From contig JADFWU010000052.1 of NCBI GenBank assembly GCA_015234045.1, positions 1-21,601 of the forward strand: a stretch of 21,601 nt of DNA, written 5' to 3'. The DNA comes from Magnetococcales bacterium (lineage in GTDB: Bacteria; Pseudomonadota; Magnetococcia; Magnetococcales; JADFWU01). Made by a program: the position numbers and the translations under genes. This document shows positions 8,317-17,399 of the stretch, one piece after another (position 1 is the first letter of the stretch; every line of letters begins with the position of its first letter). The notes beneath the pieces are model-generated. The model saw only the letters and a program-made list of their open reading frames with translations, was not told the DNA's origin and did no database searches.

Positions 8317-8421
8317 AGTGAAATAGGGCCGAAACGCAAAACTAAGGCCATTGATTTATAATAACAGGCCTGGGATCGTAGCTAATTCTAGAGTAGACAG
8401 ACAGGGTTTATTGCGTGTCGC

Positions 8422-8581
8422 ATAGTGGTTTCGATTCAAAATTAGACAATCATTCCCAATCTGAGTGGAGGACCTGGTGATGTTTTTGCGCCGCTTTTGA
8501 TATGCAAAGCAGATCATCAGAGCAAAAACATCACCAGAGCTGGAACGGCTGACTGTTCAAATTTAGACGAAATCACTCTAT
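8422..8581 (+). repeat. Interspersed MITE-like element, copy 1 of 3
   Basis: A 160-bp element. Its left end ATAGTGGTTTCGATTC is the imperfect inverted complement of the right end GACGAAATCACTCTAT. Inside, CTGGTGATGTTTTTGC (8474-8489) and GCAAAAACATCACCAG (8522-8537) pair perfectly over 16 positions around a 32-base loop. The same layout recurs at 13913 and 17176 in the same orientation. It has no open frame of note, so it would depend on a transposase elsewhere. It fills the gap between the glycosyltransferase stop and the yjdM upstream region. No target duplication is obvious. Confidence 0.9.
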
Positions 8582-8599
8582 CCGAGCAACATGGCTAAC

Positions 8600-9769
8600 C
8601 TATTGTGCGCTCAAACCACGGTAGTATTGCGCCATGCTCTGAGCGACAGAGTCAATGCCATAGTGCTGAACGATTTTATCTCTCGCATGCTGACCCATCT
8701 TTCGGAGTTGTTCAGGATTGGTGAATCCCTCAAGCACGGTTGAGATAACCGCTTCTGGCGTATGATCAGGAATAATCAAGCCATCTTTTCCCGGAGTAAC
8801 GATCTCTGGCATACCACCAACAGCGGTGATGGCTGCGGGTGTGCCAGTAGACATGCTTTCAAGGAGAACATAAGGGAAATTTTCCCAACGGGATGGAAAA
8901 ATAGCCAGGGATGCACGGTTATACCACTGAATTAACGACCGCCGTGAAACCATGTCAAAATGAAGTCGATTATGGAATTGATCGGGCACGATATTGAGTA
9001 TATGGCGTTTCCATGTAACACCCTCTTTATAGTCCGTATCGCCACCCAGAAATGTACAGCGCAACTTTGGCCGCTGCTCACAAAGAATCGGAAGAGCCTC
9101 AGCGATCAAGTCTACTCCTTTCAGATATTGCAATCGGCCGACATAGAGCAGATGATCGTCTTCCTTCAAGCTGGGATCAGGTGCAAACAGATCCGTATCA
9201 ATCGGATTGGGAATAACGGTAACCGGGCGACTATCCATAGAAAAAAGTTCAAATTGACGATCAACGAGTGCGCGACTTGGAGAGCTAAAATAGTCCGCCC
9301 GCTTCAATACTTGACGTTCTGCCCAATGGGTTGATTTATGTTTATTGGGTTGACCATTGATATGATCAATAAATTTTTTTGACAGATGAAAACGCACAAG
9401 AACAGGTGGTTTTTTTGTTTGAAAATGAACAAATAATGAGTCTGCATCACACTCTGCTGATTCAACCAGATCAAACTGCTCTGTTTTATAAATCTCTTTG
9501 AATTTTCGAGCGGCTGCATAAGAAAACGCGGGAAAATGCTGCTTAAAACGCCACATCAATGGCAGGCGTTCAAACAGATTATCAGGCAACACCCGATGAA
9601 CGGTTATACCATCCACTCGCTGTGTACTCTCTTTTTGCACGGCTTGACTGATCACAGTCACTTCAAAACCATGGGCAACCATACCTTGTGCAATTTCATG
9701 AACATATGTCGCTATTCCACCCCAATCGGTCTCTGGCGGATACTCTCTTGATATGTAACATATTTTCAT
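8600..9769 (-). CDS. Glycosyltransferase family 4, cytoplasmic
   Basis: A 389-residue GT-B-fold enzyme that would transfer a sugar from a nucleotide donor onto a growing surface glycan with retention of configuration. The N-terminal domain starts MKICYISREYPPETDWGGIA, the glycine-rich acceptor loop typical of GT4. The linker has VIPNPIDTDLFAPD (185-198), then LLYVGRLQYLKGVDLIAEAL. The donor site has the E-x7-E motif at Glu296 and Glu304 (WENFPYVLLE) followed by STGTPAAITAVGGMPEIV. No membrane segment or signal is present. The ATG at 9769 has no clear Shine-Dalgarno. It is divergent from the radical SAM gene across a 346-base gap, and the neighbouring sulfotransferase supports a glycan locus. 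The sugar and acceptor cannot be read. Confidence 0.92.
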   Translation of the reverse strand: MKICYISREYPPETDWGGIATYVHEIAQGMVAHGFEVTVISQAVQKESTQRVDGITVHRVLPDNLFERLPLMWRFKQHFPAFSYAAARKFKEIYKTEQFDLVESAECDADSLFVHFQTKKPPVLVRFHLSKKFIDHINGQPNKHKSTHWAERQVLKRADYFSSPSRALVDRQFELFSMDSRPVTVIPNPIDTDLFAPDPSLKEDDHLLYVGRLQYLKGVDLIAEALPILCEQRPKLRCTFLGGDTDYKEGVTWKRHILNIVPDQFHNRLHFDMVSRRSLIQWYNRASLAIFPSRWENFPYVLLESMSTGTPAAITAVGGMPEIVTPGKDGLIIPDHTPEAVISTVLEGFTNPEQLRKMGQHARDKIVQHYGIDSVAQSMAQYYRGLSAQ

Positions 9770-10115
9770 AAAACGAGCGCCTATTTACTGGCAATGAGGT
9801 AGCATTCTGGCGGAATTCACACCATGTCTTTCATCGTGAAACAACAGGCTTTCATTGTAAACGCTAGTGACCCTTAGATGCCAGATAGGATAAATTTTTG
9901 GCAGTCCCACCCATGTAAGCGAATCTACGCACTCATTCAGTGCTTCCAAAAGCCTCTATTTCGTGGTTAAATCAATGGGAATTCTGTTTTTCAAGCAAAG
10001 TACATATGTCCGTAACGCCATTGACACAGCGACTGGCTGGATTAATAACGCATCTCCTTAAGTCGATGAAGCACACACCATCACCCACTATTCACCCTCT
10101 GATTGAGCCTGAAAA
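9770..10115. other. Divergent intergenic region of the glycan locus
   Basis: This gap separates the minus-strand glycosyltransferase from the plus-strand radical SAM gene and should hold promoters for both. Apart from the plus-strand promoter candidate at 10021-10048 I see no repeat, RNA gene or clear operator. A plus frame runs through the right part (9940-10197) but has no family signature and overlaps the radical SAM start. Confidence 0.4.
10021..10048 (+). promoter_or_regulatory. Candidate promoter of the radical SAM-sulfotransferase operon
   Basis: TTGACA (10021-10026) is a perfect -35 box. After 16 bases comes TAATAA (10043-10048), a fair -10. The start would be near 10055, giving a leader of about 60 bases before the ATG at 10116. 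Position, strand and spacing fit; no binding data can be inferred. Confidence 0.45.
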
Positions 10116-11030
10116 ATGCCCCAATGGATTGATGATCTTTTTGCATGGTTATACCTCAAACCCTGGCCTATCTTCGGACGCAGGCATCCCTTTTTGAAAA
10201 AGGTACGCAAAAAAATCAATGCGATGATGTACCCAAAACGGGGCATTGCCTGGATACCACACAACCAGAGGATGGAGATCGAAATCATCACTGCCTGTAA
10301 CCTGAAATGTTACAGTTGCAACCGATCATCAACTCAAGCGCCCAGTGGAGAAATGATGTGCATGGAGCAGTTGCACAAGTTTCTTGAGGAGTCCAACAGA
10401 TTGAATTGGCCTTGGCGTCGATTGGCATTGATTGGTGGAGAACCAACAATACATCCAAAATTTAAAGAGATTGTTGATCTGTTTCAACCGTATATGGAAC
10501 AAAATCCTGAATGTTTTCTACAGGTGTCTACCAATGGTTACGGGAAAAAAGTAAAACAGAAAATCGCGGATCTGCCAGAGTGGGTTGTTTTGCAGAATAG
10601 TGAGAAACAGGGGTCAAATCAATCATTCGTAAGCTATAACGTGGCACCCTGTGATGTAGACGAGTATCAAAATACGGCTTTGGGACCATATTGTCTCGAG
10701 TATCATGAAGATCAGGCGGTTAAGGCCTGTGTTCTGGTGGAAGGATGTGGTATTGCCCTGACGCGCTATGGCTACTATGCCTGTGGTCCTGGTGCGAGTA
10801 TTGATCGTGTATTTGGCTTTAATATTGGCATCAAAAAATTGGAAGACGTAACCCATGAGAATTTCAAAAAACAGTTGAGATCACTCTGTAAATACTGCGG
10901 TCACTACAAGCATTCCGATATGAACCAGGAAGAGAAAGAGATTCTTCTTGAGACTGAAACCGTCTCATCCAGTTGGCGTAAGGCGTATGCTGATTACAAG
11001 CAGGAAAAACCCAAACTGGACCTCTATTAA
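10116..11030 (+). CDS. Radical SAM enzyme with Cys-rich (SPASM-like) C-terminus
   Basis: A 304-residue protein. The radical SAM cluster motif is Cys61-x3-Cys65-x2-Cys68 (ITACNLKCYSCNR), and GGEPT at 107-111 is the SAM-binding glycine loop. VSTNGYGKK near 137-145 is another core strand. The C-terminal part holds seven more cysteines (179, 193, 205, 211, 223, 258, 261, including CKYC), a pattern suited to an auxiliary iron-sulphur cluster as in SPASM or twitch domains. The substrate is unknown; its place in a glycan locus suggests sugar or lipid modification rather than peptide maturation, with no precursor peptide in view. The ATG directly follows an in-frame stop (10110-10112), so no longer start exists, and the ribosome site is poor. 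It precedes the next gene by about 20 bases, in one operon. Confidence 0.85.
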   Translation: MPQWIDDLFAWLYLKPWPIFGRRHPFLKKVRKKINAMMYPKRGIAWIPHNQRMEIEIITACNLKCYSCNRSSTQAPSGEMMCMEQLHKFLEESNRLNWPWRRLALIGGEPTIHPKFKEIVDLFQPYMEQNPECFLQVSTNGYGKKVKQKIADLPEWVVLQNSEKQGSNQSFVSYNVAPCDVDEYQNTALGPYCLEYHEDQAVKACVLVEGCGIALTRYGYYACGPGASIDRVFGFNIGIKKLEDVTHENFKKQLRSLCKYCGHYKHSDMNQEEKEILLETETVSSSWRKAYADYKQEKPKLDLY

Positions 11031-11050
11031 GAGATTGAGTGGTTGTCAAC

Positions 11051-12802
11051 ATGAGTGAACAATCGGAGCAATCAGCGCAAGCCATTGACCATTCAAAAAA
11101 CGGTGCGTCTGTTCGGAAACCGCTCCATATCGGTATTATTTTGCACGATACGCGATGGCAGCAATGGATCAGTTATTTGATTGACTCCTTGAACCAGGAT
11201 ATCAGATTTCAAGTCCTGGTACTCTTCGAAGGAACCGCTGAACAAACGAAACCTTTGGAGAATGCCTCTCAGAATAGGTCGGCTATTCAGCGACGACTGG
11301 ATAAGATAAGCCACCTTGTCATGTCACAGCCCAAAGGATCTGGCGGCCTATTCCGGCTACTCTTTTCTCTTTGGGATGAGCGAAATCATGGATCTCATCG
11401 GGATGCGCAAATTATTCAGCATCAGAGTACGCTTTCTTCTGACATTGCACAGATTCACATTCCCGAGACCGCTTCCCCTCAATTCTGGCGTGATTTGGTT
11501 ACTCAGCACCAACTGAACCTCTTATTGGAGCCCGAAAGCCCCAATCGTAACCGACATCAGAACCTGGGCCTGTCTCTGGGACACTGGTCCATACAGTTCA
11601 ATTATGGTTATCCCATCAGCCTTTACTGTCCAGTACTGAGCAAAACCCCGGTTAGTCACACCGATTTATTGATGGATATCGGGCTAACTACAGGCCCATT
11701 ACATTTACTTTCCCTTGATATTGCAACACATTTTCAATCTCCATGGCAAAATGAAAGCCGATGGTTATATCACGCTACAGGTATGATCATCCAAAAACTC
11801 CGCAGTGCGGCTCAAATTGATACAGCCGAATTCATCAACGCCCATAGTGATGCCACGCTGTCGGATAATACTCAGCGCCCTACGGTGCCAAGCGTGGAAC
11901 GGCTGACCTGGTATTCTCGGATGATGGGCTTTTTTCTCGCCAATCAACGCGTACAACGCAATCGCCGACACCATTACGAGCATTGGTCTTTATGGATTGG
12001 TCATGAAGAGCGCATACCGGATGATCTGAGCCAATTTAGTGAGATTATGCCACCAGCCGGACATTTTTGGGCTGATCCTTTTGTCATTGAGAAACACGGG
12101 GTTCACCATCTTTTTTTTGAGGATTATGACTACGCCACCAAAAAAGGGGTGATCTCCTATATTCAACTCGAAAAAAAGAGTATTGAACACAGTACACCCA
12201 TCACTGTTATGGAGAGTGAGCATCACCTCTCATTTCCATTTTTATTCAACCACAACAACGCACTACACATGGTGCCTGAATGTTCAGCATCGGGACGCAT
12301 TGAACTCTATCGCTGTACGCATTTTCCGAACGAGTGGACCTTACAGCGTGTGTTAATGGACAACGTGAGTGCCGCTGACACAGTGCTATTTTTTCATGAA
12401 TCGCGTTGGTGGTTATTTACCAACCTGGAGGTCTACCCTGATGCTTATCATCAGGATGGGCTATTCATATACCATGCTGATGATTTGATGTATGGCACCT
12501 GGCAAGCACATCCCGCGAATCCAGTGGTTTCGGATGTTCGTTTTGCCCGAGGAGCGGGTTCAATTTTCGAACAGGATGGCACTCTCTATCGTCCATCACA
12601 GGACAACTCGGAGACCTATGGCGGCGCACTGAATATTCAAAAGATTATTGAATTATCGCCCACTCGATATCGTGAACAGCATGTGAAGCGGTTTGCGCCC
12701 GATTGGCATGTTGGTTTGGCAGGCGTTCATACATATAATCAAGCAGGTGGTCTTACTGTCATTGATTCCAAGCAGTACAAAAAGAACAAAGCTCCTGTAT
12801 AG
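11051..12802 (+). CDS. Formyltransferase-like / GINT1-like beta-propeller protein
   Basis: A soluble protein of 583 residues with two parts. Residues 20-260 begin with RKPLHIGIILHDTRWQQWIS and resemble formyltransferase-like N-terminal domains, though the family N/H/D catalytic set is not clear to me. Residues about 310-575 form a propeller-like repeat region: GHFWADPFVIEKHGVHHLFF, FPFLFNHNNALHMVPE, RWWLFTNLEVYP, FARGAGSIFEQDGTLYRPSQ. This C-terminal pattern recalls bacterial proteins annotated as glucosamine inositolphosphorylceramide transferase (GINT1)-like, usually found in glycan clusters. The exact reaction is unproven. The ATG at 11051 is taken; a GTG at 11039 would add four residues. 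Neither has a strong ribosome site, and coupling to the preceding gene is likely. Confidence 0.62.
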   Translation: MSEQSEQSAQAIDHSKNGASVRKPLHIGIILHDTRWQQWISYLIDSLNQDIRFQVLVLFEGTAEQTKPLENASQNRSAIQRRLDKISHLVMSQPKGSGGLFRLLFSLWDERNHGSHRDAQIIQHQSTLSSDIAQIHIPETASPQFWRDLVTQHQLNLLLEPESPNRNRHQNLGLSLGHWSIQFNYGYPISLYCPVLSKTPVSHTDLLMDIGLTTGPLHLLSLDIATHFQSPWQNESRWLYHATGMIIQKLRSAAQIDTAEFINAHSDATLSDNTQRPTVPSVERLTWYSRMMGFFLANQRVQRNRRHHYEHWSLWIGHEERIPDDLSQFSEIMPPAGHFWADPFVIEKHGVHHLFFEDYDYATKKGVISYIQLEKKSIEHSTPITVMESEHHLSFPFLFNHNNALHMVPECSASGRIELYRCTHFPNEWTLQRVLMDNVSAADTVLFFHESRWWLFTNLEVYPDAYHQDGLFIYHADDLMYGTWQAHPANPVVSDVRFARGAGSIFEQDGTLYRPSQDNSETYGGALNIQKIIELSPTRYREQHVKRFAPDWHVGLAGVHTYNQAGGLTVIDSKQYKKNKAPV

Positions 12803-12895
12803 AGTTCGTTTTTATAAGGGTCGCGGAAAAAATTAATCGTCCCAAACACGTAAGATAGTGTTTCGTCCGATAGCGGATTGTAAGAGAGGCATGTT

Positions 12896-13828
12896 GTGGT
12901 AATCAAACCCAATTTTGTGATTATTGGTTCTGTTAAAGCGGGTACGACATCTCTGGTCCGCTATCTTCGTGAACACCCGGATATCTGTTTTTGCAATGCG
13001 GAATTACAGCTTTTTGCACCAGAATTTGCCAACCATCGGCGCATGATGGGTGTGACCGAGCAGATGAGCCGGGCATCCATTGAGAAATATTTTTCTGGCT
13101 TCGATGGACAGGATTATAAAATCTATGGAGAGAAATCCGCGCTGTATCTTTTATCTGATCACGGCGTAGAAAATATAATGAAGCACAACCCGGATGCCAA
13201 AATCGTTGCGATGATTCGCAATCCAGTGGACGTAGTAGAATCTTTTCACGCACAGCTACTTTTTGACACCAACGAGAATATCACTGACTTTTCCAAGGCC
13301 TGGGCATTACAGGATCAACGTGCAGAAGGCACCCATATCCCACCAGGCTGCCTGGAACCAGCACTATTGCAGTTGAAACGGGTTGGCGCATTAGGCACCC
13401 ACCTGGAACGCATGATGGCTATTGTTCCACAAGGACAGTATCATATTATTTTATTTGATGATTTTATCAAAGACACTCAAAAAGTCTACCAGGATGTACT
13501 GACTTTTTTAGATCTTCCTCAGGATGGGAAATCCGAGTTTCCACGTTTCAATCCACGAAAATTCAACAAATCATATTGGATAGCCCGTTTCACTCAACAT
13601 AGACCGCATTGGTTAAAGCGTCTGCAATTTTATCTAGGCTATTATCTGAGAAGACTCTCTCTTCCAACGGTAGATTTGGTATCCCTGCTCGCCAAGATGA
13701 ATCAGTCCAATAAAAAGCGGGCACCGTTATCCACTGAAGTTCGACAGCAACTCATTGAAGCGCTGAAACCTGAAATTGATAAGATTGCCCGAATCACGAA
13801 TCGCAATCTGGATCATTGGATGAAATAG
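12896..13828 (+). CDS. PAPS-dependent sulfotransferase
   Basis: A 310-residue cytosolic sulfotransferase that would move sulfate from PAPS to a hydroxyl or amine, probably on a glycan or glycolipid. The 5'-phosphosulfate loop is near the N-terminus: FVIIGSVKAGTTSLVRYL, with Lys14 and Thr17-Thr18. The 3'-phosphate site is AKIVAMIRNPVDVVESFHAQ (101-120), with Arg108 and Ser116. Other family features are YGEKSALYL near 77-85 and YHIILFDDFIKDTQKVYQDV then LTFLDLP. The length is normal for the heparan-sulfate-type group. The GTG at 12896 is chosen because GAGAGG lies about six bases upstream; the nearby ATG at 12891 is out of frame. It follows the GINT1-like gene after 93 bases. The substrate is unknown. 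Confidence 0.93.
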   Translation: MVIKPNFVIIGSVKAGTTSLVRYLREHPDICFCNAELQLFAPEFANHRRMMGVTEQMSRASIEKYFSGFDGQDYKIYGEKSALYLLSDHGVENIMKHNPDAKIVAMIRNPVDVVESFHAQLLFDTNENITDFSKAWALQDQRAEGTHIPPGCLEPALLQLKRVGALGTHLERMMAIVPQGQYHIILFDDFIKDTQKVYQDVLTFLDLPQDGKSEFPRFNPRKFNKSYWIARFTQHRPHWLKRLQFYLGYYLRRLSLPTVDLVSLLAKMNQSNKKRAPLSTEVRQQLIEALKPEIDKIARITNRNLDHWMK

Positions 13829-13912
13829 GAGACACGGAACCAATAAATTTCACATGTTTCCCTGGATAATCAATTAATTCCGTATTCCCATCCCCTACTC
13901 TCTCTCACTGTT

Positions 13913-14071
13913 ATAGTGATTTAGATCCAAAATTTGACAATAACTCACAACCTGATCGGAAGCCCTGGTGATGTTTTTGCGCCGCTTTTGATATGCGAAG
14001 CAGATCATTAGAGCAAAAATATCACCAGGGTTGGAACGGCTGACTGTTCAAATTTTAGACGAAACTACTGT
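13913..14071 (+). repeat. Interspersed MITE-like element, copy 2 of 3
   Basis: A 159-bp copy. The left end ATAGTGATTTAGATCC and the right end TTTTAGACGAAACTACTGT form the imperfect terminal inverted repeat. The inner arms are CCCTGGTGATGTTTTTGC (13963-13980) and GCAAAAATATCACCAGGG (14013-14030), 18 positions with one G-U (on plus RNA). It sits between the convergent sulfotransferase and phosphate transporter genes. The rest of the gap 13829-14153 contains no T-tailed hairpin, so the element's own stem may be the only strong structure ending either transcript. Confidence 0.9.
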
Positions 14072-14153
14072 GTTGAGGAAAGCAGGAGCAGAGATTATGC
14101 CTACTCGTCATATTAAACACACAAGGGCATATGCCATACCTCATTTTGAGACG

Positions 14154-16037
14154 CTAGTTAACCAAGGCTAGAGCTGGTCGGTCCGTTGCTGAAGCAACCC
14201 AAGAATGATCCGCTTGCTTATGGCTCTGGGAATGCTCAAGTACCAAACGAGCAACCCGCTCTGAAGCATGATGAATCCGACGTAGATTTTCCTGCACATC
14301 CGTCAACAGAGAAAATCTGCCAAGGTCATCGACTGCTGTATTGCCTTTCAATGCCTGTATCTGCTGGTGACGAATTTGATCATCCATAGCCGTGATTTTA
14401 TAGTTCAGATTGAGGGTTTTTTCAGCAGCTCTGGCATTGTCTGCATTGAAACTTGATGTTGCCGAACGGAAAACATCAAGAACCTGTTCATGGAACTTTC
14501 TCAAGCTGTTGATCTCGCTTTCAGAAAACGACTGTCCCTGTTTTTTGAGTCGTTTGGTAATGCGAAAAAGATTTTGAGAGATGATATCGCCAACGCTTTC
14601 CAACTCCACCAGGGTATTGGTAATTTTGGTGACATGTCGATTAATATCAACTGGTAAATTTCGACAGGAAAGTTCAGCCAGATAGTGGGTGAGCACCTTA
14701 AACATCTCATCCACCACATCATCCTGTTTACGTAGCGCACGCATCTGCTTTACATCGCCTTTGACAATGGCATTGAAAGCATCATCGGTCATTTGCTCCA
14801 ATAAAGCTGTCATATCAGCGACTTCGTGACGTACCACCTGAATAGCAGACTCAGGTGCAGCTGTTGCCACAGATTCAAGCGCTTCAGGCTGATAGCAACT
14901 GACAACAGGTTGTGGTGCTTCCACACTCTGCACAGCCGATTTTTCAGGAAGAACCCAATAACAGAAACGTGCGAACAATCCTGTTGCTGGCAAAAACACC
15001 AAAGCCAAACCAACATTGAACAAGGTGTGTGCATTGGCCACTTGACGCGGCAATGTGGCAGCAAGAAGCTCTTGTGGCGTAGCCAAAGACGTATCAGCTA
15101 CCGGAGAGATTGAGCGAACCAGGTCGGCAAATTGGGGAATAAACCCCACCACAAGTAAGGCACCAGCAATTTTAAAACTCACATGTGCCACAGCAACCCG
15201 AACAGCCTCACGTGGTTTTCCAATAGCTGCCAGGCCAGCGGTTACACAGGTGCCAATATTAGCACCAATGGTCATGGCAATACCGCCTTCCAAATCGATA
15301 AGACCATGCATGGCCAACACCAGAACAACACCCATGGTGGCTGCTGAGGCTTGAATCAATCCGGTAAAGAGTGTCGCTACCAGAATACCAATGACCGGAT
15401 TGGACACACTGGCCATGATATCAATAAAGGGTTGATAGCTCCTCAAAGGCTCCATGGCCAAGCTCATCTGACCCATACCAAAGAAAATAAGTCCCATACC
15501 CAAGATCAGCTTGCCGTACTGCTTCGCTTGTTCTGATCTACCTAAAAAGCTTAAAGCAAAACCTGATGTGATCAACAGAGGTGCCCACTTGGTCACCTTG
15601 AAAGCCACAATCTGGGTGGTGATGGTTGTGCCAATATCAGCACCCAAAATCACACCTAGTGTTTGTGCAAAAGTCATCAAACCAGCAGTGACAAAACCCA
15701 CCAACATCACTGTTGTGACCGATGAGGATTGAACCACGGCTGTCACAAATGTACCGGTGATCATACCCATCACACGATTGGAGGTGAGACGGCGCAATAA
15801 AGTGCTCATTCCATCGCCTGCAACGGCTTTTAGCGCACGATTCATCATCTCCATGCCAAACAGGAAGATAGATAATCCACCTAACAGGTGAATGGTCAAT
15901 GCGGTAAAGTCGATCTCACCAGCCACTGCCTCGACTGAGGCTCTGGCCAGTGCCGGTACACAGAGTCCTGCCATCATGGTCATGGCAAAGGCTGTGAGTG
16001 TCTTATATCGTCGTGGATGTTCTATGAGTCGTTTCAT
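14154..16037 (-). CDS. Na+/phosphate cotransporter family protein (NptA/PNaS), first copy
   Basis: A 627-residue inner-membrane protein of the Na/Pi-cotransporter II family, expected to import phosphate with sodium. The N-terminus (about 1-33, ending ALARA) looks like a signal peptide, unusual for the group. The inverted-repeat core follows: GGLSIFLFGMEMMNRALKAV (53-72), then the first signature TAVVQSSSVTTV with QSSS at 103-106, GADIGTTITTQ near 133-143, and the second half with LFTGLIQASAATMGVVLVL (Gln230-Ala-Ser-Ala in place of QSS) and GANIGTC. From about 395 the tail is a PhoU-like helical domain (VRHEVADMTALLEQMTDDAF, LVELESVGDIISQNL). AGGAG eight bases before the ATG supports the start. 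A second, divergent copy lies at 17465. The exact ion is inferred from the family. Confidence 0.92.
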   Translation of the reverse strand: MKRLIEHPRRYKTLTAFAMTMMAGLCVPALARASVEAVAGEIDFTALTIHLLGGLSIFLFGMEMMNRALKAVAGDGMSTLLRRLTSNRVMGMITGTFVTAVVQSSSVTTVMLVGFVTAGLMTFAQTLGVILGADIGTTITTQIVAFKVTKWAPLLITSGFALSFLGRSEQAKQYGKLILGMGLIFFGMGQMSLAMEPLRSYQPFIDIMASVSNPVIGILVATLFTGLIQASAATMGVVLVLAMHGLIDLEGGIAMTIGANIGTCVTAGLAAIGKPREAVRVAVAHVSFKIAGALLVVGFIPQFADLVRSISPVADTSLATPQELLAATLPRQVANAHTLFNVGLALVFLPATGLFARFCYWVLPEKSAVQSVEAPQPVVSCYQPEALESVATAAPESAIQVVRHEVADMTALLEQMTDDAFNAIVKGDVKQMRALRKQDDVVDEMFKVLTHYLAELSCRNLPVDINRHVTKITNTLVELESVGDIISQNLFRITKRLKKQGQSFSESEINSLRKFHEQVLDVFRSATSSFNADNARAAEKTLNLNYKITAMDDQIRHQQIQALKGNTAVDDLGRFSLLTDVQENLRRIHHASERVARLVLEHSQSHKQADHSWVASATDRPALALVN

Positions 16038-16058
16038 CCTATTGTCTCCTTAGTTCAA

Positions 16059-16076
16059 AATCTCAATTCCGAGATT
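16059..16076. other. Small palindrome in the leader of the first cotransporter
   Basis: AATCTC and GAGATT flank a six-base loop (16059-16076), about 22 bases upstream of the start codon and adjacent to the ribosome site AAGGAG. As an RNA hairpin it could affect translation. The stem is only six pairs. Confidence 0.25.
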
Positions 16077-16203
16077 ATGGGGTATTGCCTTTTTGGCTTG
16101 AATTCCCGTGAATTGCCTAAATGTTTAACTAAAGCCGCTGCATGTACGGTCAGTGACATATTCAGCGGACACCATGCATTTGATTCACACCATCTTAACT
16201 ATT

Positions 16204-16221
16204 CTGTCACACAATCGTCAT
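16204..16221 (+). promoter_or_regulatory. Pho-box-like site upstream of the first cotransporter
   Basis: CTGTCACACAATCGTCAT holds two heptamers, CTGTCAC and TCGTCAT, separated by four bases. That is the 11-base period of PhoB boxes (consensus CTGTCAT twice). It is 167 bases upstream of the minus-strand cotransporter but points along the plus strand, where a TTATAG follows 14 bases later. The orientation is wrong for a simple promoter of the transporter, so the role is uncertain. Confidence 0.4.
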
Positions 16222-16675
16222 AAATCAGCCCTGAATTATAGAGAGTAAGTTACAAAATGCCAGAAAAAAAAGCCAAATTGATCATTATTTCTTCAACATA
16301 AACATCTTAATATGCTGTTTTTATTTGATTATCACAAAACAGCAACAGAGCAAACAAGATTCATCCGATTCATTTGTTACGATATGATGACAAATTCTTG
16401 CAAATGTCATGCTAACCCAACAAATTCTTCATTTTTTCTTCACATTAATATCGGTGATTATGATGTTTTGATTGATTTTCAGCAGATTGGATCAGACTGG
16501 AGAGAGATGAAGCGCGTGATCTATGACAATGCTATTGCAGAAAACAGAGCGAAAATTTTCCTTAGGTACAAAAGTCACTCAACGACTTAACTCCCATACC
16601 TTTTACCAGCATGTCATGGTAACTATTTGTCACACCAGAAACTCTGGATGTGAGTGATGTCTTAATCAGGGTTTC
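16222..16675. other. A/T-rich intergenic stretch with repeated ATGTCATG motifs
   Basis: No supported gene lies here. ATGTCATGCTAAC (16404-16416) and ATGTCATGGTAAC (16611-16623) differ by one base and lie 207 bases apart; a related ATGTCATGTAAGT occurs at 19285 before the second cotransporter. A plus frame 16312-16590 (92 codons) has no ribosome site and no recognisable family, and I do not call it a gene. Confidence 0.35.
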
Positions 16676-16702
16676 ACAAAAGGTGTTCATTAATGAAGCA
16701 CC
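16676..16702 (-). terminator. Probable intrinsic terminator of arfB
   Basis: On the minus strand, six bases after the stop codon, GGTGCTTCATTAATGAACACC forms a stem (one bulged C) followed by TTTTG. The stem is short and A/T-rich, so strength is moderate. It would also separate arfB from the first cotransporter. Confidence 0.5.
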
Positions 16703-16707
16703 TTCCA

Positions 16708-17133
16708 TTACCCATCAATATCCGGCCCTTTACGGCGTAGTTTTTTCATCTTGGAACGGTGTCGTTTACCTTCTAACCGTTTTATTTTTGATCGGTAGCT
16801 TGGCCTGCTTTTTTTTCTCGTTTTTGGGCGTACAGTGGCTCTAGAAATCAGATCAATCAACCGAGTCAATGCCTCTTGCTTGTTGCGTTCCTGGCTTCTA
16901 GATTGTCGTGCGTCCAGCACCATGACACCGTCATTTGTCAGTCGGTTACCAGCCAATTTTTCCAAACGTTGTCTCACCTCATATGGCAAAGAGTGTGACC
17001 GCCGAACATCAAAACGCAACTGTACGGCAGTGGATACTTTATTGACATTCTGACCACCAGGGCCGGAAGCCCGCACAAAGGATATCTGGATTTCATCCTC
17101 GGATAGAGAGATCTTCTCATTGATATAGATCAT
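16708..17133 (-). CDS. arfB: Peptidyl-tRNA hydrolase ArfB (ribosome rescue)
   Basis: ArfB (YaeJ) releases ribosomes stalled on messages without a stop codon by hydrolysing the peptidyl-tRNA. The 141-residue protein has the release-factor catalytic loop, FVRASGPGGQNVNKVSTAVQ, with the GGQ at 26-28, then LRFDVRRSHSLPYEVRQRL and RLTNDGVMVLDARQSRSQ. The basic tail (RPKTRKKSRPSYRSKIKRLE, GKRHRSKMKKLRRKG) is the part that enters the empty mRNA channel. The start at 17133 (MIYINEKISLSEDEI) matches known family N-termini. The open frame continues to 17271, but those extra 46 codons come mostly from repeat copy 3 and are not part of the protein. The ribosome site is weak (GTAAGA). The start lies 42 bases from the repeat element, which may influence its promoter. 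Confidence 0.95.
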   Translation of the reverse strand: MIYINEKISLSEDEIQISFVRASGPGGQNVNKVSTAVQLRFDVRRSHSLPYEVRQRLEKLAGNRLTNDGVMVLDARQSRSQERNKQEALTRLIDLISRATVRPKTRKKSRPSYRSKIKRLEGKRHRSKMKKLRRKGPDIDG

Positions 17134-17175
17134 AGTCTTACAGACAACGTAATGATTGAATGGCTCCCATGTATT

Positions 17176-17334
17176 ATAGTGATTTCGATCCGAAATTAGA
17201 CAATGAACCACGACCTGAGTGGAAGCCCTGGTGATGTTTTTGCGCCGCTTTAGATATGAGAAGCAGATCATCAGAGCAAAAATATCACCAGGGCTGGAAC
17301 GGCTGACTGTTCAAATTTTAGACGAAACACCTAT
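17176..17334 (+). repeat. Interspersed MITE-like element, copy 3 of 3
   Basis: A 159-bp copy with the best-kept left end, ATAGTGATTTCGATCC then GAAATTAGACA, and right end TTTTAGACGAAACACCTAT. The inner arms are CCCTGGTGATGTTTTTGC (17226-17243) and GCAAAAATATCACCAGGG (17276-17293). It lies immediately upstream of arfB and downstream of the second cotransporter's terminator. The TAT/ATA at both outer edges fits a TA-rich target, but I cannot prove a duplication. Confidence 0.9.
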
Positions 17335-17343
17335 AACCAACGT

Positions 17344-17399
17344 GCCAACACAAACGCACCAACACAAACGCGTCAACACAAACGCACCAACACAAAATA
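17344..17399. repeat. Four tandem copies of a 14-bp unit
   Basis: The unit is ACCAACACAAACGC. Copies run 17344-17357 (GCC start), 17358-17371, 17372-17385 (GTC start) and 17386-17399 (decayed end CACAAAATA). It starts ten bases from repeat copy 3 and runs into the terminator of the second cotransporter. There are no unique spacers, so it is not CRISPR. Being 14 bp it would shift frame if translated, so it is noncoding. Confidence 0.85.

Follow-up and report, generated by a model that had tools for sequence, protein, structure and literature searches.

Probable replication-linked orientation of a short IS630-type mobile element in a Magnetococcales draft genome

The stretch of DNA analysed here (the window, 21,601 nucleotides) is the entire contig C65 of a 3.65-Mb Magnetococcales draft genome, which comprises 117 contigs and lacks about 7% of the genome. 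The window carries three copies of MITE-1, a non-autonomous element of the IS630/Tc1 type and thus a miniature inverted-repeat transposable element (MITE). Small repeats of the MITE class are usually regarded as scattered with little regard to orientation. MITE-1 insertions follow the GC skew of the surrounding DNA in about 98% of cases. Judged on the comparisons cited below, no other property of the element is as unusual as this orientation. The nearest named topoisomerase I proteins belong to metagenome-assembled genomes of Magnetococcales (65% identity).

Orientation of MITE-1 relative to replication

GC skew was used as a proxy for replication direction; the contigs are unordered. Orientation was scored in the stretches fetched around copies. 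Within contigs nearly all MITE-1 copies share one direction, and a copy on the plus strand pairs with a C-rich plus strand. The regions tested first, consisting of the window and twenty stretches of about 20 kb, agreed in sign with the skew in 21 of 21 cases. Agreement was found for 118 of 122 copies in a first count and for 138 of 144 in a later one. For separable insertions, copies within 400 bp were merged and 11 clusters with an absolute skew below 0.025 were excluded; 103 of 105 such insertions follow the skew (binomial p 2.7e-28). Both exceptions (C27:2-77 and C31:76-129) are located at contig edges. In C31:1-129 (L091), what we take to be the 3' end of a group II intron abuts MITE-1 position 104 of the latter. 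On contig C93 two opposite copies flank a local change of skew. The skew fluctuates there, and the pair was not counted.

Ten copies belong to a short form that measures about 82 bp and lacks the centre of the element. All ten fit the skew, hence the orientation determinant is located in the outer 45 bp or so of each side. The young copies, with a median of 94% identity to the consensus, are oriented as strongly as diverged ones, which points to an origin of the bias during or close to insertion.

The G-rich strand is usually the leading strand. In the host rpoB lies on the G-rich strand, an indication confounded by coding skew, which suggests the same assignment. With the skew taken as replication direction and the G-rich strand as leading, the fork would meet every MITE-1 copy right end first.

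Two other elements of the same genome lack the bias. MITE-2, an unrelated element in the same DNA, agrees with the skew in 8 of 20 copies and is randomly oriented (Fisher test against MITE-1, 5.7e-10). The left ends of a resident IS630 insertion sequence (IS) are random as well, with agreement at three sites (C13, C32, C70) and disagreement at four (C107, where the skew is weak, C22, C106 and C77; Fisher test against MITE-1, 8e-5). Both samples are small.

Family size and structure

The original prediction, made from the letters of the window, had described the three repeats as MITE-like and proposed to count copies in the host genome. The genome search yielded at least 121 copies on both strands: GGAACGGCTGACTGTTCAAA with up to three mismatches occurs at 121 sites, split 55 to 66 between the strands. 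The reversed sequence gave no match in the whole genome at the same threshold; the repetition is therefore not due to chance. A profile search of the stretches fetched around copies gave 116 clusters, which together hold 144 copies, complete or partial.

MITE-1 was not detected in 60 related genomes (47 of the same order searched; none of the same family) or in plasmid and phage records. An exact MITE-1 22-mer had no match in 84,980 species genomes, a collection that may omit records near the host genome. A single viral match was dismissed as a chance resemblance within a recombinase-like gene. The prediction would have fallen had the genome held no further copies, or had the repeat matched a structured RNA family with no terminal repeats conserved. 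The genome holds many copies, their terminal repeats are conserved, and Rfam models gave no match at gathering score, by which a structured RNA family was rejected. The suggestion that the family may be undescribed is in line with the lack of any match in Rfam and the searched collections.

The consensus TA-TAGTGATTTCG...CGAAACCACTA-TA measures 161 bp with both TAs and 157 bp between the duplications. Outer inverted repeats of 28 bp are followed by dissimilar subterminal parts and a central inverted repeat. The imperfect terminal repeats had been estimated at about 27 bp; left and right ends are identical at 19 of 28 positions. The central palindrome was recovered as well, but its arms measure 20 bp and exceed the predicted 16-18 bp. 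The 161-nt consensus folds end to end into a single long hairpin, and either strand is able to do so. Neither the 157-bp nor the short form contains a conserved open reading frame (ORF). The right block (positions 121-141) has fewer private mutations than the loop (0.38 versus 0.91 per position).

Half-elements recur, with right halves at C11:10438, C27:44661, C43:5432, C48:27310, C51:5525 and C88:10230 and left halves at C26:52933 and C67:6788. The outer end is intact and the break lies at positions 70-77, near the hairpin apex, which suggests that the hairpin is broken in vivo. On contig C29 (108825-109623, L073) five units are arranged head to tail with a period of 161 bp. Three of them have private changes in common, hence the array grew by duplication. 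A 34-bp unit of the right end is repeated three times in tandem at C58:21659-21798 (L109).

Target site and candidate mobiliser

Two nested insertions reveal the target. MITE-1 is inserted in another MITE-1 at AAAAG-TA-TCACC (C63:10461-10776) and in a MITE-2 copy at GTG-TA-CC (C62). Both show a TA target duplication against the paralogous empty site, and most copies have TA at both edges. The flank preference, TNNTANNA, is weak and symmetric; the target therefore cannot set the orientation. New copies are taken to enter TA dinucleotides of intergenic DNA. Terminal inverted repeats, TA duplications, the absence of a gene and at least 121 copies all bear out the classification as a MITE.

A full-length IS with the same terminal repeats had been named as a further check. 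The genome harbors a multi-copy IS630 with similar 28-bp ends but no intact transposase. Its left end, TATAGTCATTCCAATCTAAAATCTAACA, is located on contig C77, 28 bp ahead of the start of a transposase with an HTH_Tnp_IS630 domain, and this copy extends 306 bases to the contig end. Left ends occur at seven sites; except for the one on C77, they lie no more than about 80 bases from a contig end. Right ends sit at additional contig edges, and C90 carries the decayed remains of a copy, including a DDE_3 domain. The assembly evidently broke within the multi-copy IS630. The transposase is visible only as N-terminal and decayed C-terminal pieces, the interior being lost at contig breaks. The 28-bp ends of IS630 and MITE-1 are identical at 23 of 28 positions on the left and 19 of 28 on the right. 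A relative of the same order harbors a related IS630 in two frames, with similar ends. Mobilisation of MITE-1 in trans by the resident IS630 or a close relative is a hypothesis well supported by these sequences. The original guess of an IS630/Tc1-type mobiliser, hedged at the time, gained from the two nested TA duplications, the symmetric target and the multi-copy IS630 with like ends.

Two further elements were noted. MITE-2 measures about 105-150 bp, with ends TTAGGCGTTACGCA... and the core GTCATTCCCGC, and the fetched stretches contain at least 20 copies of it, e.g. L072:15486-15633 (C29), L108:2559-2675 and L108:2848-2956 (both C58). Several MITE-1 copies adjoin or lie within MITE-2. MITE-3, a third, related and low-copy MITE-like element (C26:55837-55977, C55:28123-28260, C84:32700), has ends, TATAGTCATTCC, nearer to those of IS630 than the MITE-1 ends are. 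Its copies are too few for an orientation test.

Origin of the orientation

It is proposed, with belief and doubt about in balance, that MITE-1 is moved by IS630 or a relative and that its insertion is fork-coupled and polar. The transposase of IS630, or that of a close relative, would move MITE-1 in trans into an intergenic TA. Insertion would be coupled to the moving fork in a polar manner, which is the least certain step. The two unlike ends might be told apart, e.g. by a factor binding one of the subterminal 45-bp parts together with the replisome or the sliding clamp. The outcome would be comparable to that of Tn7 TnsE or IS200/IS605. Replication-oriented insertion is known for both of these systems (PMC5371812), and several IS transposases bind the sliding clamp (PMC5371812; PMC4549789).

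Several observations weigh against this proposal. The resident IS630 is unoriented despite its similar ends, at rates resting on few copies; the match between its ends and those of MITE-1 is good, not identical, and no intact IS630 transposase has been assembled. Replication direction is deduced from skew in a draft of 117 contigs. The pattern is drawn from standing copies, and a strong loss of wrong-way copies would lead to an identical one. The half-elements broken at positions 70-77 slightly favour such a loss. If the IS630 transposase moves MITE-1, the source of the polarity must be either the subterminal sequences of MITE-1 or a different transposase that has gone unseen. The lack of bias in IS630 speaks against simple coupling at the level of the transposase. 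On balance it is rather probable that the subterminal 45-bp ends of MITE-1, and not a transposase common with the unoriented IS630, impose the near-absolute orientation, either by polar insertion or by a fork barrier in reversed copies.

Insertion may alternatively occur in both orientations, with wrong-way copies being lost or selected against. A Tus/Ter-like polar barrier, formed by a protein bound to the outer 45 bp and the more plausible cause, or a hairpin unstable on one template strand could be responsible. This explanation, the chief alternative, is possible and is held tentatively. It would yield a chromosome-wide bias independent of gene direction, and would account for the unbiased IS630 and MITE-2, both of which lack the MITE-1 subterminal sequences. 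The recurrence of halves from a hairpin seemingly cut in vivo fits as well, as does the exception C31:76, which is broken at position 104 beside the presumed intron end. However, no barrier protein or motif was identified. The two strands fold nearly equally as DNA (mean -28.8 versus -27.2 kcal/mol) and the hairpin-prone MITE-2 is unbiased, which renders simple hairpin instability unlikely. A strand asymmetry of the hairpin was discarded as a candidate: the differences are small, and DNA parameters do not agree with RNA parameters. The count of G-T versus A-C pairs was not used, as the structure had been derived from one strand and the argument is circular. Polar fork-coupled insertion is tentatively preferred over loss, since orientation is equally strong in recent and old copies and since the loss of a non-coding insertion as short as 82 bp would need to act strongly at every site.

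Other explanations received far less credence. MITE-1 could mark direction along the chromosome in the manner of KOPS, Chi or another polar motif, its orientation being maintained by a host role. The near-absolute polarity, the many copies and the less mutated block 121-141 would suit a mark. It is improbable all the same, since no 6-8-mer of MITE-1 is prominent among the strand-skewed words of the remaining genome, the spacing is uneven and neighbouring copies on C29 can be tens of kb apart, the 47 searched genomes of the same order lack the element, and broken and tandem copies are abundant. A single-strand (HUH) element, i.e. an IS200/IS605-derived PATE or a REP/REPIN, would explain the replication-linked orientation directly and agrees with the hairpin structure. 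This origin is very unlikely. A search for the Y1 transposase (PF01797) had no match in the host genome, while five control genomes matched; in an IS91-type search (PF04986) none of the control genomes gave a match by which to calibrate the result. TA on both sides, the TNNTANNA target and inverted ends like those of the DDE-type IS630 also speak against it, although one TA could in principle be the element's own. Finally, many bacteria show a loose association of gene direction with skew, and the orientation might be a by-product of gene orientation or base composition. This is scarcely credible. Only 54% of ORF bases lie on the G-rich strand, and 70 of 112 MITE-1 copies oppose the local coding majority while 118 of 122 follow the skew; gene orientation was ruled out as a cause on these two counts. 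MITE-2 is randomly oriented in the same DNA. The orientation calls are no artefact of composition, as the profile matches the opposite strand far more poorly (e.g. 172 versus 97 bits).

Copies in the window and their gene context

A repeat search of the window recovered the three predicted same-oriented copies as one family (155 nt, 83-100% identity, one strand). Their predicted limits were off by one or two bases once the TA duplications, intact or mutated, are included. All copies are on the plus strand. Copy 1 (8421-8580; profile positions 2-157, 160 bits) has CA, probably a mutated TA, on the left (8421-8422) and TA on the right (8579-8580). Copy 2 (13912-14072; 1-157, 164 bits) has TA on the left (13912-13913) and TG, probably a mutated TA, on the right (14071-14072). 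Copy 3 (17175-17335; 1-157, 176 bits) has TA on both sides (17175-17176 and 17334-17335). Its left 28-bp terminal repeat, TATAGTGATTTCGATCCGAAATTAGACA (17175-17202, plus strand), resembles the left end of the resident IS630; the right one (17308-17335) reads inwards on the minus strand. The central inverted repeat (17224-17295), missing from the short form, has arms at 17224-17243 and 17276-17295. In copy 3 the conserved block, GGAACGGCTGACTGTTCAAA, occupies 17296-17315 of the plus strand, within the right subterminal part; it is exact in all three copies, with the others at 8542-8561 (copy 1) and 14033-14052 (copy 2). A tandem repeat of about four 14-bp units (ACAAACGCACCAAC-like; 17336-17391) begins exactly at the right edge of copy 3.

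Gene names were read from ORF translations. Copy 1 is presumably flanked by a PhnA-like and a glycosyltransferase gene, copy 2 by a convergent pair that we take to be a sulfotransferase-like gene and a Na/Pi cotransporter gene, and copy 3 by what appear to be a second gene for a Na/Pi cotransporter and an ArfB-like gene. The copies had been described as non-coding, and no recognisable protein is encoded in any of the three. One listed ORF starts inside copy 3. It is an artefact of taking the first start codon 5' of the ArfB-like gene.

Significance and comparison with known systems

MITE-1 is about 98% oriented, while its likely parent IS630 and the MITE-2 in the same DNA are not, which makes for a clean natural experiment: whatever reads fork direction must be contained in some 90 bp whose sequence is known. 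Through its study, cut-and-paste transposition could prove to be tied to the replisome in a new way, or a polar fork obstacle of a new kind could come to light. The orientation of MITE-1 may also be used as a marker for ordering the contigs of draft genomes by replication direction. Gomez et al. reportedly described in 2014 IS families with a family-specific orientation relative to replication and clamp-binding transposases (cited after PMC5371812 and PMC4549789).

The RUP element of Streptococcus pneumoniae (107 bp, ends of IS630-Spn1) resembles MITE-1 as a non-autonomous element with IS630-type ends, a TA target and about 100 copies, and favours gaps between convergent genes (PMC3049150, PMC2229807). 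Compared by description, it differs in its unrelated host and in its orientation: 60.9% of RUP copies follow the leading strand, mirroring the coding bias, as against about 98% oriented for MITE-1 (PMC3049150). BOX (60.8%) and SPRITE (63.3%) have similar leading-strand shares in pneumococcus (PMC3049150). Correia/NEMIS elements of Neisseria occur in one form of about 107 bp and another of about 155 bp that contains an internal segment of 50 bp, just as MITE-1 occurs in forms of about 82 and 157 bp; their terminal inverted repeats measure about 24 bp with TA at the ends (PMC2229807). The host is a different one, the comparison is by description, and a replication orientation of Correia/NEMIS was not found in the literature consulted. 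Tn7 (TnsE) and IS200/IS605 resemble MITE-1 in that their orientation follows the direction of replication (PMC5371812). Tn7, however, carries a dedicated target selector. IS200/IS605 elements use single-stranded DNA and a Y1 transposase and form no target duplication, whereas MITE-1 has a TA duplication and a host genome in which no Y1 was found.

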